A stretch of DNA of 64,000 bases, from NCBI RefSeq assembly GCF_001938565.1, contig NZ_MSYM01000006.1, forward strand, positions 1 to 64,000. The letters run 5' to 3'. A model generated the notes under the pieces. That model was not told where the DNA came from and did not search any database. It saw only the letters and a list, made by a program, of their open reading frames with translations. Source of the DNA: Rhodoferax antarcticus ANT.BR (GTDB taxonomy: Bacteria > Pseudomonadota > Gammaproteobacteria > Burkholderiales > Burkholderiaceae_C). Shown here in pieces: positions 10,137 through 16,666 of the stretch (within the stretch, counting starts at the first letter, position 1; each line of letters begins with the position of its first letter). The translations under genes were made by a program, and so were the position numbers.

Positions 10137-11039
10137 TTAAAACACTTTGTTTGAGAGGATCTGCAGCAGGTAGCGCCCGTAGCCGTTCTTTTTGAGCGGC
10201 TGCGCAAGCAAATCGAGTTGGGCGGCATCGATGTAGCCTTTGCGGTAGGCAATCTCTTCTGGGCAGGCTACTTTTAAGCCCTGGCGGTTTTCGATGGTGG
10301 CAATAAATTGCCCGGCTTCCAGCAATGATTCGTGCGTGCCGGTGTCTAGCCAGGCCATGCCGCGGCCCATGAGTTCGACGTTGAGCTGGCCCTGCTGCAG
10401 GTAGACACGGTTGACGTCGGTAATCTCAAGCTCGCCACGGTTTGAGGGTTTGATGTTGGCGGCAATGTCGCAGACCTGGTTGTCGTAAAAATACAGGCCG
10501 GTGACGGCGTAGTTTGACTTCGGTGCCGTGGGCCTTTCTTCGATGCTGACGGCGCGGCGCTGGGCATCAAATTCGACCACGCCATAACGATCAGGATCGT
10601 GAACGTAAACGTGGTGGGCAAACACGGTGGAGCCTTCTTGGCGTTCAGTCGTGGCGCGCAGTTGGGCTTCAAAGTCGTGGCCGAAATAGATGTTGTCGCC
10701 CAGAATCAGTGCCGATGGCGAGCTGCCAACAAAGTTGCGGCCAATGATGAAGGCTTGCGCCAGGCCGTCCGGGCTGGGCTGCACGGCCTGGCTGAGGTTG
10801 ATGCCCCACTGGCTGCCGGCGCCCAGCAACTCCTGAAACCGCGGCGTGTCTTGCGGGGTGGAGATGATCAGGATGTCTTTGATCCCGGCCAGCATCAGCG
10901 TGGTGAGAGGGTAATAGATCATCGGCTTGTCGTACACCGGCAGCAGTTGCTTGGAGACTGCCATGGTGACAGGGTATAGCCGGGTGCCGGAGCCGCCGTC
11001 TAGGATGATGCCTTTGCGTTGGGTGGAGGTGACTGTCAT
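10137..11039 (-). CDS. rmlA: Glucose-1-phosphate thymidylyltransferase
   Basis: A 300-residue nucleotidyltransferase that makes dTDP-glucose from glucose-1-phosphate and dTTP. The start at 11039 is preferred because the longer frame (11072) overlaps the upstream HEPN gene. Motifs: the N-terminal nucleotide-binding signature, [39 protein letters not shown] and [16 protein letters not shown]. Oddity: the signature reads ILDGGSGTR, with Asp14 where the family normally has Ala (ILAGGSGTR). Everything else looks intact. dTDP-glucose would feed both rhamnose and the 3-acetamido-3,6-dideoxyhexose pathway of this locus. Confidence 0.93.
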
Positions 11040-11043
11040 GGTG

Positions 11044-11571
11044 TTATTTGAGTCGCTTGGCATTTTTGGCACTGATAACAGGTTTCCCTGTTTTCAATTC
11101 GATTTCTTTACGGGTGTTAGCCGCCATCCGTACTTGGGTTTCGATCAGAATATGAACGCCGTTCAAGGCTTGTAGCAGCGCATCCAGAAGGTCGTCTGCC
11201 GACGCCATGTGTTCGTGCACCAGTCGATTCCTTAACTCCCGAAGCTCAATCCAGGCCTGGGTCGATTCGATCCAGCCTAGTTTCTCGGCGCGCAGCAGGT
11301 TGTCAAGCTGCGAACCAGTTTTTTCTAGATTGGCGCTCAACAATGCACGCAGGAGTTTGTCGCCCAAGGAGTCTTGCAGGCGGCTGTAGCGAGAAACAAA
11401 TGCGTCCAGCATTTCGCTGTGCTCATCGCTGTCTTCAAGTGACTTGACCCAAGCAAGATCAAGGTTCTGGCTTTGGAGCCGTGTCGTCGTTCGTTCAAGG
11501 TAGTGCGCTTCTTTTTCTGTGATCTGCAGCAACTGCGCCACCATAAATTGGCTGTCTTGTGGCGTCGTCAT
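11044..11571 (-). CDS. HEPN-domain protein, HepT-like toxin candidate
   Basis: A 175-residue mostly helical protein whose C-terminal half contains the HEPN RNase-like motif R114-NRLV-H119 (Rx4H). The following HxY-type position is His121 rather than Tyr. It overlaps the preceding nucleotidyltransferase gene by ATGA. A MNT nucleotidyltransferase and HEPN protein in this order are the hallmark of MntA/HepT toxin-antitoxin modules, where MntA adds AMP to a Tyr of HepT. The protein is longer than typical HepT and has a Lys-rich tail. It separates rmlA from the repeat and truncated gmd upstream, so it looks like an insertion into the sugar cluster. Activity is inferred only. Confidence 0.75.
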
Positions 11572-11910: not shown

Positions 11911-11962
11911 TTTTAAATAGCTGCTTGCACAGTGTTAGCAAGGGCTAGAGCCCTATTCGACA
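11911..11962 (+). repeat. Dispersed stem-loop repeat, copy A
   Basis: Matches the family pattern seen elsewhere in the window: TAGCT-CTTGC, a short variable loop, then AAGGGCTAGAG and a T-rich end. It lies between the MNT gene and the truncated gmd. The gmd stop codon (TAG, 11953-11955 on the minus strand) is inside the right end of the repeat. It is the first of three copies that bracket the scrambled 11.9-16.7 kb region. Confidence 0.75.
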
Positions 11963-12732
11963 CTCACATTCACCACATACCCATTCGCCTTGAGCAGCGC
12001 GTGTTGCTTGGCCTGCGCCAGGTCATTGGCGTGGCCCCAGTCGCGCAGGGCGTCGATGTTGCCCATGTACAGGCAGCTCTCCAGGCCTTGGCTGATGTTG
12101 GCCATACCCCGGGTGATTTTGCGGGTGACAAAGGTTTCGCCCCGGCGCGGGCTTTCGTGGTTAAACAAAATGCCGTTGCAGGCATACATGCCATAGGCCT
12201 CGCGGTAGTTGACGCATATCCAGTAGGCGTAAAGCTTGGCCACGGCGTAGGGGCTGCGGGGGTAAAACGGTGTGGTTTCGCGTTGCGGGGTTTCTTGCAC
12301 CAGGCCATAAAGCTCGCTGGTACTGGCTTGGTAAAAGCGGGTTTTTTTCTCCAGCCCCAGTATGCGAATGGCTTCCAGCATGCGCAGGGTACCCATGCCG
12401 TCCACGTCGGCGGTGTATTCAGGGCTCTCAAAGCTCACGGCCACGTGGCTTTGGGCACCCAGGTTATAGATTTCATCCGGCTGGGTTTCTTGGATGATGC
12501 GCGTGAGGTTGCTGCTGTCGCTCAAGTCGCCGTAATGCAGCTTGAAGCGGGCGTTGTCCACATGCGGGTCTTGGTAGATGTGGTCCACGCGGGCGGTGTT
12601 AAAGCTGGAAGCCCGGCGCTTGATGCCGTGCACGGTGTAGCCTTTTTCCAGCAGAAATTCGGCCAGGTAGGAGCCGTCTTGGCCGGTGATGCCGGTGATT
12701 AAAGCTACTTTGGGGGTGGTTTGGGGGTTCAT
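11953..12732 (-). pseudogene. gmd: GDP-mannose 4,6-dehydratase, 3'-truncated
   Basis: A 259-residue open frame, against about 345-370 for intact Gmd. The N-terminal Rossmann motif [14 protein letters not shown] and the catalytic STSELYG and [15 protein letters not shown] segments are normal. Homology breaks off just after [14 protein letters not shown], where Gmd normally continues into its C-terminal substrate-binding region. About 20 unrelated residues (ending [10 protein letters not shown]) follow before a stop supplied by repeat copy A. About 100 C-terminal residues are therefore missing and the enzyme is probably inactive. Gmd makes GDP-4-keto-6-deoxymannose, the substrate of the fcl product encoded at 14208-15185, so the GDP-fucose route here seems broken unless another gmd exists. 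Confidence 0.85.
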
Positions 12733-12733
12733 T

Positions 12734-14164
12734 TTATTCTGAGGACTTAAGACGGTATTGTTGCAAGCGGCTACCGGGTTTATGCGGCAGGGTACCTGCG
12801 ATCAGGCCAGCGACCTGCAGTGCGCGTATGACTTTGTTCAGTTGACCCGACACTTCCTTTTGGCCCAGCGCCGCGGAGATTTCGCGCTTACCCATGGGGC
12901 CGCGGATGAGCAACGCCAAGACGCGGGCTTCGAGTGAGGAAGCGGACTCTGGCTGTGACTCTGGCTGTGACTCTGGCTGTGACTCTGGCTGTGACCGAGT
13001 TTGAGTGAAGGTTGCTACGACACCACCAAATTTTTCTTCAACGGTAAATTCAACTTCAGGGTATTCGAGCAAGGCTTTGCGTATGCGGATGAAGCCGCTG
13101 CCGTATTTTTCGATAGCATGGGTTAGATAAAAACCTTCGGCAATCAGTTTGTTACGCAGGCTAGACCGGTAGTTATCGGCTTGAACGTCTGCCACGGTCA
13201 GCTTGCCGTAGAAGGTGCCGGGGCTGAAGATGGTAATTTGCTTGTCGAATATTTTGATTTGGATGTCCGAGCCATCGGTGTAGTCGCGATGCACCACGGC
13301 ATTGAGCAGTGCCTCGCGCAGGGCGGGCAGGGGGTAGGCAAAGCGCTCTTTACGCTGGATGCTGCCATCAAATTCAAAGGCAACGGCGATGTATGAAATG
13401 ATGAACTTCATCGCCTGGTCAACCGCCTCAAACAAGGTGTCGGTGATCTGACGGTCGTCAATGATTATGTCGGGCGTTTTGAAGCGGCCAATGTGAATGT
13501 GGTGCCGCAATGGCTCCTGGGCAAATAGCAGCATGGCCGCCCAGGTGGGCTGCCCCTGCTGGACGTAGTTGAGCTTTTCAAGCGCCTGCATGGGGGTTGC
13601 GGCATCAAGCGCAAAGCGGCCACCGGCGTTAACTTGGCTCACAAACCGTTCGATTTTGATAGGCGAAAGATCATCAACTCTGGCGTGATGCGCCGGGTAG
13701 GCGTCCCACGAGAGTTGCAGCGACTGCATGTAAAGGTCGCTAATTTGGTTGGCGTTGAGCGCCTGGTTCGAACTGGCCACACGTTTGTAGTACCGACCTT
13801 TGGTGCTAACGGGCTTAACCGGAAATTCAGCAATGTCTATCGCAACGATCGTTTTGCCGTCGAGTTGGTGCACCTGCAGGTCGGGGATGATGGATGGGCT
13901 GGTGGATGATTTGATTTGTACCAGCCATTCATTGAGGCTTTCTTTGCCCAAGGTGATGCCTTGCACGCGGCCAGAATCGGTCACACCAACCAGCACTGTG
14001 CCACCTTGCGCGTTGGCAAAGGCCACCAACGATTCAACCGTCGCTTTATCAAAGCTGGCTTTAAACTCCAGCGTTTGCGACTCACCGGCAAGAAGCAGCC
14101 GATCAAAGGCCAGCCGTGTAGAGGCTACAGCGGTGTCTTGGATGATCGACTTGGAGGTGGTCAT
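12734..14164 (-). CDS. Schlafen/AlbA_2-domain ATPase with C-terminal winged helix (RecG-like regulator)
   Basis: A 476-residue protein. The N-terminal AlbA_2/Schlafen domain reads [28 protein letters not shown] HATPase-like middle domain carries the typical [15 protein letters not shown] motif, followed by a Ser/Gln/Pro/Glu repeat linker (SQPE repeated four times) and a winged-helix C-terminus ([17 protein letters not shown]). Proteins of this build are widespread, mostly uncharacterised, sometimes transcription regulators and sometimes linked to phage defence. It sits 1 base upstream of the truncated gmd and is unrelated to sugar metabolism, so it is probably an inserted cargo gene. Function is unknown. 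Confidence 0.8.
12945..12992 (+). repeat. Four perfect 12-bp tandem repeats inside the AlbA-ATPase gene
   Basis: The unit GACTCTGGCTGT occurs four times head to tail. On the coding (minus) strand it encodes a SQPE/ESQP repeat forming the linker between the ATPase and winged-helix domains. A 12-bp unit changes linker length without shifting frame, so copy number could vary between strains. Confidence 0.95.
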
Positions 14165-14226: not shown

Positions 14227-15185
14227 AGGAAATCTTGGTAGGCCAGTCCCAAACCGTCATGCAAATTTACTTTTGCCTGCCAACCCAGCGCATTGATGCG
14301 ATTGCTGTCCATGAGCTTGCGCGGGGTGCCATCTGGCTTGGTGCTGTCAAAGTCGATGTCGCCCTGGTAGCCGATCACCTGGCCTACCGATCTGGCCAGT
14401 TCAGCAATCGTGATGTCGCTGCCAAAACCCACATTGATGTGGCTTTGCATGGGGCTGGTGTGCTGCTCATAGGTGGCTTTGGGCAGGTTCATGACAAACA
14501 CACTGGCAGCGGCCATGTCGTCCACATACAGAAATTCGCGCTTGGGTGTACCACTGCCCCAAATGGCGACCGATGGCGCATCAGACACCTTGGCCTCATG
14601 AAAGCGGCGAATCAATGCGGGGATGACGTGGCTGTTTTGTGGGTGGTAGTTGTCGCCAGGGCCATAGAGGTTGGTGGGCATGACGCTGCGGTAGTTCACG
14701 CCGTGGCTAGCGCCGTACTGGCGGTTGTAGCTTTCGCAGAGCTTGATGCCGGCAATTTTGGCAATGGCATAGGGCTCGTTGGTGGGCTCAAGCGGGCCGG
14801 TGAGCAATGCATTCTCTGCCATGGGCTGTGGGGCTTGGCGTGGGTAGATACAGCTTGAGCCTAAAAACAGCAACTTTTGCACGCCGTTTTGAAAGGCTGC
14901 GTCAATCACGTTGGCCTGCATCATCAGGTTTTGATAAATGAAGTCCGCCGGGTAGGTGTTGTTGGCGTGAATGCCGCCTACCTTGGCGGCGGCTAGGTAA
15001 ACCTGGCTGGGCTTTTCAGCAGCAAAGAAATTGCGCACTGCGGCCTGGTTGGTGAGGTCTAGCTCGGCATGGGTGCGGGTGATGATGGACTCAGGCGCAT
15101 AACCAGCGCCCAGCAGTTGGCGCACGATGGCTGAGCCAACCATGCCTCGGTGGCCAGCAACGTAAATGGTGGCTGACTTGTTCAT
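14208..15185 (-). CDS. fcl: GDP-L-fucose synthase
   Basis: A 325-residue extended SDR that epimerises and reduces GDP-4-keto-6-deoxymannose to GDP-L-fucose. Motifs: [14 protein letters not shown] (11-24), GSSCIYP and [20 protein letters not shown] with the YxxxK pair. Length is normal. The start overlaps the MarR-type regulator upstream as ATGA. The extreme C-terminus (QTGC) is encoded by repeat copy B. A second, broken copy lies at 15861-16666, and its nominal partner Gmd is truncated, so pathway function is doubtful in this strain. Confidence 0.93.
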
Positions 15186-15544
15186 GGTTTTTCGCTGGCT
15201 GGTTCGCCACTCACTTCAAGCTGCAGCACCGCAATTTCAGCTTGCAGGTGCTCATACTCCACCATTTTGCGTTTCAGAAAGCGCGCAGTAAGGGCGCTTT
15301 TTTCAGCGATGCCGACGGGGGTAAGCAGGTAGGCGTAGGCCAGCTTGTTTTGGCTCTTGCGAAAGCTTTGCACTTTGATCAAGCCCTTGTCGACCAGGGC
15401 TTTAAAGCAAAAGTTGGTTTTGCCCAGACTCACCCCTAGCGCCTCACTCACCTCGCGTTGGCTCAAACGCGGGTTGCCCTCCAGCAGGCGCAAGACCTTG
15501 AGGTGGGTTTCTTCGTGGAGGGGTGAGAGTTGTGGCTGGTTCAT
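15182..15544 (-). CDS. MarR-family EPS-associated transcriptional regulator
   Basis: A 120-residue protein starting [21 protein letters not shown], with a winged helix-turn-helix ([32 protein letters not shown]) and a helical C-terminal tail. This is the small MarR-like regulator family commonly found in EPS loci. The start at 15544 is chosen because everything upstream in the same frame is a mosaic of other gene fragments. It overlaps fcl by ATGA, so the two are co-translated. It probably controls expression of the polysaccharide locus; its operator is unknown. Confidence 0.85.
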
Positions 15545-15860
15545 TTGATGAACGCGGATGCTAGCACGGGTGCCGGAGCCGCCGGCGAGGATGATGCCTT
15601 TGTGTTGGGCCATTTCAGCTTTTGCCAAGTTCGCTGGCAGGCCAGTGCGACGCCATTCGGTGTAGTTGAGTTCAGCAAGGTAGGAGCCGTCTTGGCCGGT
15701 GATGCCGGTAATGAGGGCGACTTTGGGATTGATTTCGCGGCACAGGGTGCTTTGAGCGTCGTACAAAGCGTTGACAGCATCACCAAATGTAGGGTCACCA
15801 ATGATCAACAAATCAATGTCGCTACGGTCGTTTTCTGCCCCGCTGGGTGCTGAGCAGGCC
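15545..15860 (-). pseudogene. Mosaic of polysaccharide-locus gene fragments (MNT, gmd, rmlA pieces)
   Basis: One open minus-strand frame joined to the MarR gene reads through pieces of unrelated genes. First comes a nucleotidyltransferase fragment ([27 protein letters not shown]). It joins within the shared word NPKV to a Gmd N-terminus ([20 protein letters not shown]). An unrecognised stretch (NYTEWRRTGLPANLAKAE) follows, then an RmlA N-terminus (MAQHKGIILAGGSGTR), then the MarR gene. Each piece keeps its proper reading direction but is cut after 15-45 codons. This is a scar of repeated deletions or recombinations, not a functional gene. Confidence 0.8.
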
Positions 15861-16666
15861 AACCGGGGTGCGTGCCAGGTCGGCAATGGTGATGGTCGCT
15901 GCCAAAACCTACGTTGATGTGGCTTTGCATGGGGCTGGTGTGCTGCTCGTACACGGTCTTTGGCAGTTTCATGACGAACACACTAGCTGCCGCCATGTCG
16001 TCCACATACAGAAATTCGCGCTTGGGTGTGCCGCTGCCCCAAATGGCGACCGATGGCGCACCAGACACCTTGGCCTCATGAAAGCGGCGAATCAATGCGG
16101 GAATGACGTGGCTGTTTTGTGGGTGGTAGTTGTCGCCAGGACCATACAAATGGGTGGGCATGACGCTGCGGTAGTCCACGCCGTGGCTAGCGCCGTACTG
16201 GCGGTTATAGGACTCGCAGAGTTTGATGCCGGCAATTTTGGCAATGGCATAGGGCTCGTTGGTGGGCTCCAACTGGCCGGTCAGAAGCGCGTCTTCCCGC
16301 GTGGGCTGCGGCACGTCACGCGGGTAGATGCAGCTTGACCCCAAATAACAGCAGCTTTTGCACGCCATTTTGGAAGGCAGCATCAATCACGTTGGCCTGC
16401 ATCATCAGGTTTTGGTAGATGAAATCAGCTGGGTAGGTGCTGTTGGCATGAATGCCACCTACCTTGGCGGCGGCCAGGTAGACCTGGTTGGGCTTTTCAG
16501 CGGCGAAGAACGCGCGCACGGCCGCGTAGTTAGTCAGGTCCAGCTCAGTATGGGTGCGGCTGATGATCGACTCAGGCGTATGGCCAGCCGCCAAGAGTTG
16601 GCGCCCGATGGCTGAGCCCACCATGCCCCGATGGCCGGCGATGTAGATGGTGGGATCAATGGTCAT
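15861..16666 (-). pseudogene. Second, frameshifted and 3'-truncated copy of fcl
   Basis: Very similar at the nucleotide level to the intact fcl at 14208-15185 over most of its length. The frame from 16666 ([19 protein letters not shown]) breaks near 16340, where one extra base turns LGSSCIYP into FGVKLHLPA. The rest ([13 protein letters not shown] to VNVGFGSD) continues in another frame to about 15895, where a second extra base occurs. Homology ends after ITIADLAR, where the sequence changes to a nucleotidyltransferase fragment. At least two frameshifts plus loss of the C-terminal ~80 residues make it non-functional. Confidence 0.9.

Follow-up and report, generated by a model that had tools for sequence, protein, structure and literature searches.

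A mosaic of truncated genes before a MarR_EPS regulator gene in Rhodoferax antarcticus, a probable deletion scar in a polysaccharide locus

In Rhodoferax antarcticus ANT.BR, about 300 bp directly before an intact MarR-type regulator gene consist of pieces of other genes, most of them read in one frame with the regulator. How did this patchwork arise, and does its open frame have a function? We examined it within a window of 64,000 nucleotides (contig NZ_MSYM01000006.1, positions 1 to 64,000), for which an earlier sequence-only reading had proposed successive deletions in a polysaccharide locus. It is highly likely, in our judgement, that the mosaic is a scar left by the decay of a GDP-fucose/rhamnose module through successive short-homology deletions.

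The locus and the pieces of the mosaic

The mosaic belongs to a series of minus-strand genes, given here in the direction of reading.

19783-17786, minus strand: two-domain SDR protein, first of the gene series
17760-16840, minus strand: Wzz, name confirmed by family check
about 16666-15857, minus strand: fcl2, second GDP-L-fucose synthase copy, a frameshifted pseudogene between Wzz and the mosaic
about 15857-15565, minus strand: mosaic of gene pieces, about 300 bp, directly before marR
15728..15856, minus strand: HTH-nucleotidyltransferase piece, SDID region to REINPKV; protein matches in five genomes
15671..15727, minus strand: gmd 5' piece, without start codon; DNA matches to the genome's own gmd and to G033
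15635..15671, minus strand: piece of a 68-aa gene (NYTEWRRTGLP); parents L047:2120-1917 and L046:9441-9641
15614..15634, minus strand: stretch of about 21 bp before the rmlA ATG, possibly an rmlA leader
15567..15613, minus strand: rmlA 5' piece (MAQHKGIILAGGSGTR); DNA matches to the genome's own rmlA and to G001
15558..15566, minus strand: extended -10-like element (TGCTAGCAT) of the marR promoter, from a comparison of 13 MarR_EPS upstream regions
15539..15553: palindrome GTTCA-N5-TGAAC, candidate MarR_EPS operator, which holds the marR ATG; no other copy found in the window
15544-15182, minus strand: marR, intact MarR_EPS regulator (TIGR04176; E 1.5e-45, 153.6 bits, cut-off 88)
15185-14208, minus strand: fcl1, intact (513.1 bits, cut-off 500)
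14164-12734, minus strand: Schlafen/AlbA_2 protein
12732-11953, minus strand: gmd with an in-frame internal deletion, about 318 bp missing relative to G465
11867-11044, minus strand: MNT/HEPN-like pair, weak family matches only
11072-10137, minus strand: rmlA (TIGR01207; 502.5 bits, cut-off 360.65)
10134-9592, minus strand: rmlC, name confirmed by family check

On the minus strand the pieces follow the order HTH-nucleotidyltransferase, gmd 5' end, small gene, rmlA 5' end and then marR, whose product covers positions 2-104 of the 105 in the TIGR04176 profile, above the curated cut-off, and is a full MarR_EPS member. DNA and protein matches to the parents, beyond chance, bore out the earlier naming of the pieces and their common orientation into the regulator; the pieces are fragments of genes that relatives carry intact. 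The term "broken sugar-locus genes" fits fcl, gmd and rmlA and does not fit the HTH-nucleotidyltransferase or the small PIN-associated gene, which are not sugar genes. Likewise, the proposed extent of 300 bp is right for the other pieces and too short for the fcl remnant, which runs from about 16653 to 15857.

This remnant, fcl2, aligned with the intact fcl1 over 16653-15874 (780 bp at 86.5% DNA identity, interrupted by single-base indels), the stretch from there to 15857 being judged by eye, and its NF047922 matches are divided between two frames. The two copies (15874-16653 and 14395-15172) are about 97% identical in alignment columns 540-660 and about 73-93% identical in the other 60-column blocks, a pattern resembling that expected after gene conversion.

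The nucleotidyltransferase piece had protein matches in five of 59 other genomes (G003, G011, G013, G022 and G020), with 67% identity over 39 amino acids in G003 (E 7.8e-12). Its parents are open frames of about 190-260 amino acids; the G011 protein scored above the Pfam Polbeta and MarR_2 cut-offs, and a parent reached 22.3 bits against the MntA model, whose cut-off is 60. The gmd piece is 85% identical over 65 bp to the genome's own gmd (E 1.9e-13) and 94.7% identical over 57 bp to G033. The small-gene piece is identical at 25 of 25 bases in G013 and 91.7% identical over 36 bp in G014. Its 68-aa parent, which overlaps a PIN-like gene at that gene's end, stands directly behind such a gene in G014 and behind a broken one in G013; the PIN-like neighbour scored slightly below the PF01850 cut-off of 23.6 (22.6 bits, E 1.8e-4). 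The 68-aa gene had no NCBIfam or PADLOC match and a single implausible sub-threshold match in Pfam; its position behind the PIN-like gene suggests that it is probably the antitoxin.

No convincing parent was found for the stretch of 21 bp at 15614..15634. A match of 23/25 bases in G020 overlaps this stretch but lies outside any sugar gene and is probably due to chance. The rmlA piece is 92% identical over 48 bp to the genome's own rmlA (E 2.8e-11) and 97.6% identical over 41 bp to G001. A second rmlA start occurs in the genome on contig C4. The start of the locus rmlA (10137-11072) departs from the GIILAGG motif (followed by S, A or N) of the other rmlA starts compared, and the altered motif may possibly impair the gene.

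Parent genes and similar scars in relatives

Of the 89 genomes of the genus, 43 have a TIGR04176 match, which is above the cut-off in 33 of them. Neighbourhoods were taken from selected genomes, not from a survey of all 89, and in these most of the mosaic's parent types occur near MarR_EPS in some congener. The orders are Wzz-fcl-MarR-gmd in G478, fcl-MNT-HEPN-MarR-gmd in G501, MNT-HEPN-MarR-fcl in G021 (with fcl cut by the contig end), Wzz-MarR-fcl in G032 and G465, rmlA-rmlC-Wzz-MarR in G496, and MarR-PIN-small gene-gmd in G461, whose marR match contains one TAG. MarR is followed in G462 by a gmd remnant and then AlbA_2, and the fcl matches of G478 and G462 each have one TAG inside the profile match. 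The small gene precedes gmd in G461 and follows it in the mosaic and in G014. An HTH-nucleotidyltransferase was not seen near MarR_EPS in the loci examined, where only the related MNT occurred. Matching the segments to relatives, as had been suggested for recovering the parental order, thus yielded partial orders near MarR_EPS and the complete order in no relative examined.

Scars of a similar kind are found in other genomes of the genus. Internal joins in fcl or gmd occur in G013, G015, G461, G462, G463, G464, G482 and G483, and truncated copies away from contig ends in G031, G463, G471 and G488. We hand-picked 11 internal joins, one of them in the window's gmd and none from the mosaic, out of a DNA-level listing over the loci examined. 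Left out were L138 (its two pieces are shorter than 40 bp), repeated rows for a single join, a G013 stretch in which part of gmd has given way to a repeat-like insert, and rows explained by the extra length of the references L193, L128 and L054. The parental overlaps at these joins were 3, 11, -10, 2, 10, 6, 2, 8, -13, 10 and 16, the last value being soft because it belongs to the G464 fcl join, with a left arm of only about 70-73% identity. The median overlap was 6 bp, whereas the 387 scored deletions of a simulation had a median of 0 (Mann-Whitney p 0.001); some of the 83 references are overlapping copies, and two of the 11 joins had as best reference L054, which the simulation excluded. Seven of the 11 preserve the reading frame (p 0.039 against 1/3).

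Among the scars, the fcl of G015 (L042:724-1019) has lost 108 bp, in frame, between 10-bp repeats, GCCCACCAAC. In G013, two gmd copies (L046:11126-11665 and 13171-13959) carry a near-identical, in-frame, repeat-like insert replacing about 130 codons. A possible excess of 5' ends among partial gmd and fcl copies was discarded, the count of about seven to eight five-prime against three three-prime pieces being too small; it was made by eye, and some of the pieces are parts of joins.

Within the mosaic itself, the breakpoint between the nucleotidyltransferase and gmd pieces falls within 15728-15718. The sequence-only reading had placed it in a shared NPKV word, and this was confirmed, with 3-10 ambiguous bases. 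At the other joins mapped for microhomology the values are weak, 1-6 bases between gmd and the small gene and 1-4 between rmlA and the marR promoter; all three are raw values that depend on the parents used.

The decay also extends to the other gmd. The copy at 11953-12732 is the only one in the genome above the family cut-off, and it matches profile positions 1-236 of 342, with an in-frame deletion join near 12022-12024 at an imperfect shared word, GCCAAnGAC. Because the genome's only above-cut-off gmd is internally deleted, we infer that the GDP-fucose branch is probably no longer active, which agrees with relaxed selection.

The open frame and the marR promoter

The nucleotidyltransferase, gmd, small-gene and rmlA pieces and MarR share one frame and fcl is out of it, so the earlier description of a single frame holds at four of the five junctions (chance probability 0.045). 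This count is weak evidence because the stretch drew notice through its frame, and the in-frame bias is no more than suggestive. A TTG (15886) inside the fcl2 pseudogene opens the 234-codon frame; no ribosome-binding site was seen before this TTG, and MarR has its own ATG at 15544-15542. The best explanation is that the fused frame is a by-product and that MarR is made from its own ATG.

Conservation of the 234 residues as one protein in other species would have spoken against a mosaic, and we found no such conservation. A search of 60 genomes, including the mosaic's own, with a query containing marR gave 44 matching genomes, the others with single pieces only; the longest single-piece match was to the nucleotidyltransferase, 105 bp at 75% in G003. 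A query without marR matched 143 of 399 family genomes at E 1e-9, with the whole mosaic only in its own genome and a longest single piece of about 64 bp, from gmd; at this threshold, and with two candidates scored per genome, weak lone pieces would be missed. A scan of genome contigs with the 234-aa frame matched five relatives, one of them a Rhodoferax MAG, with every alignment confined to residues 118-227, which belong to MarR, and a degenerate peptide pattern for the nucleotidyltransferase/gmd junction gave 0 matches; the window's own genome may be missing from both scans. In the collections searched, and at the thresholds used, the composite frame is not conserved as one gene.

Most of the 13 marR upstream regions compared contain an extended -10-like element and then GTTCA-Nx-TGAAC. 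Of 43 distinct MarR_EPS loci, 22, two of them from gammaproteobacterial MAGs, have the palindrome in its exact N5 form within the 250 bp before the gene, and the other 21 lack this form. TGnTA stands just before it in 16 of the 22, and a total of 47 copies occurred in 1.12 Mb of partly redundant sequence examined. From this placement, the palindrome is a candidate autoregulatory operator of MarR_EPS genes. In the window the rmlA piece ends right at the extended -10, and any -35 region has been replaced. An extended -10 promoter can function without a -35 region, and marR could therefore survive the deletion. We considered whether a decayed marR promoter copy precedes fcl2 and rejected this, the best local match of 8 bp being reached by 162 of 2000 shuffles.

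Origin of the mosaic

We propose that a module of the kind Wzz - fcl - (HTH-nucleotidyltransferase) - gmd - (PIN/antitoxin) - rmlA once stood upstream of marR. Several deletions, each apparently at short matching words, would have removed nearly the whole module and left pieces of 37-129 bp, the last of them ending just upstream of the extended -10 and palindrome. With both spared, marR would have kept its likely start signals and probably stayed expressible. Successive deletions, as first proposed, are the best-supported reading, given the occurrence of most parent types near MarR_EPS and the scars in congeners; the series itself, with the full parental order and the number and order of the events, we infer. 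Against it stand the absence of the whole parental order in relatives, the weak and parent-dependent homology at the gmd/small gene and rmlA/marR promoter joins, and the nature of the gmd and rmlA pieces as highly conserved 5' ends, which could also be obtained by partial copying.

This last point, together with the missing intact order, would equally suit a one-step insertion, in which short stretches of nearby or horizontally acquired EPS genes were copied by template switching into a break upstream of marR and no large module was ever deleted at the marR locus. We regard such an event as improbable. The long fcl2 remnant fits erosion, several congeners show single-gene deletion scars, the pieces differ from the genome's own genes (85% identity for gmd, 92% and 93% for rmlA), and the HTH-nucleotidyltransferase and the small PIN-associated gene have no other match in the genome at E 0.001. 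An assembly artefact is extremely improbable: the assembly is a draft of 20 contigs, but the mosaic sits well inside a 95.7-kb contig, contamination is 0.27%, an ordinary read would cover more than one of the closely spaced junctions, and comparable joins occur in other genomes.

The frame could itself have been selected, as an N-terminal extension of MarR or as a translated leader coupling marR to the upstream operon; the in-frame junctions of the mosaic and of the other fcl and gmd joins would then be accounted for. The start inside a pseudogene, the promoter-like element and ATG that MarR retains, the failure to find the fusion in other genomes searched, and the way in which the mosaic came to notice make this very improbable. 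A broader proposal, which taken as a whole we consider unlikely, is that short-homology deletions that keep the frame are the preferred route of decay for EPS-operon genes in the genus. A deletion that breaks the frame would halt translation and shut off the genes downstream, and the open frame into marR would be the end product of such frame-filtered decay, perhaps translated and coupling marR to the operon.

The scar is real and informative, a well-preserved example of the ordinary decay of genes in a sugar-coat locus, and comparable scars occur in some relatives. From it one can read how a polysaccharide module was dismantled and its regulator spared, and the congener fcl and gmd scars could grow into a data set for testing a reading-frame filter on decay inside operons. 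Open frames through scars can also mislead annotation: marR is a full member of the TIGR04176 family, to which automatic annotation could add the mosaic as a false N-terminus, giving a 234-aa "MarR".

Deletions between short direct repeats, by slippage or annealing, are RecA-independent. The scars in the genus resemble them in having joins in short shared words, with the G015 fcl join in a 10-bp repeat; in the mosaic, where the same route would have operated, the mechanism is read from sequence and the shared words measure 1-10 bp according to the parents used. Pseudogene remnants and deletion scars are common in bacterial polysaccharide (O-antigen/EPS) loci. Like these, the mosaic consists of partial sugar-gene pieces left after loss of function in a fast-changing locus. 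Unlike the usual scars, it packs pieces of four genes into 300 bp behind a broken fifth, joins their open frames and stops at the promoter of a regulator.
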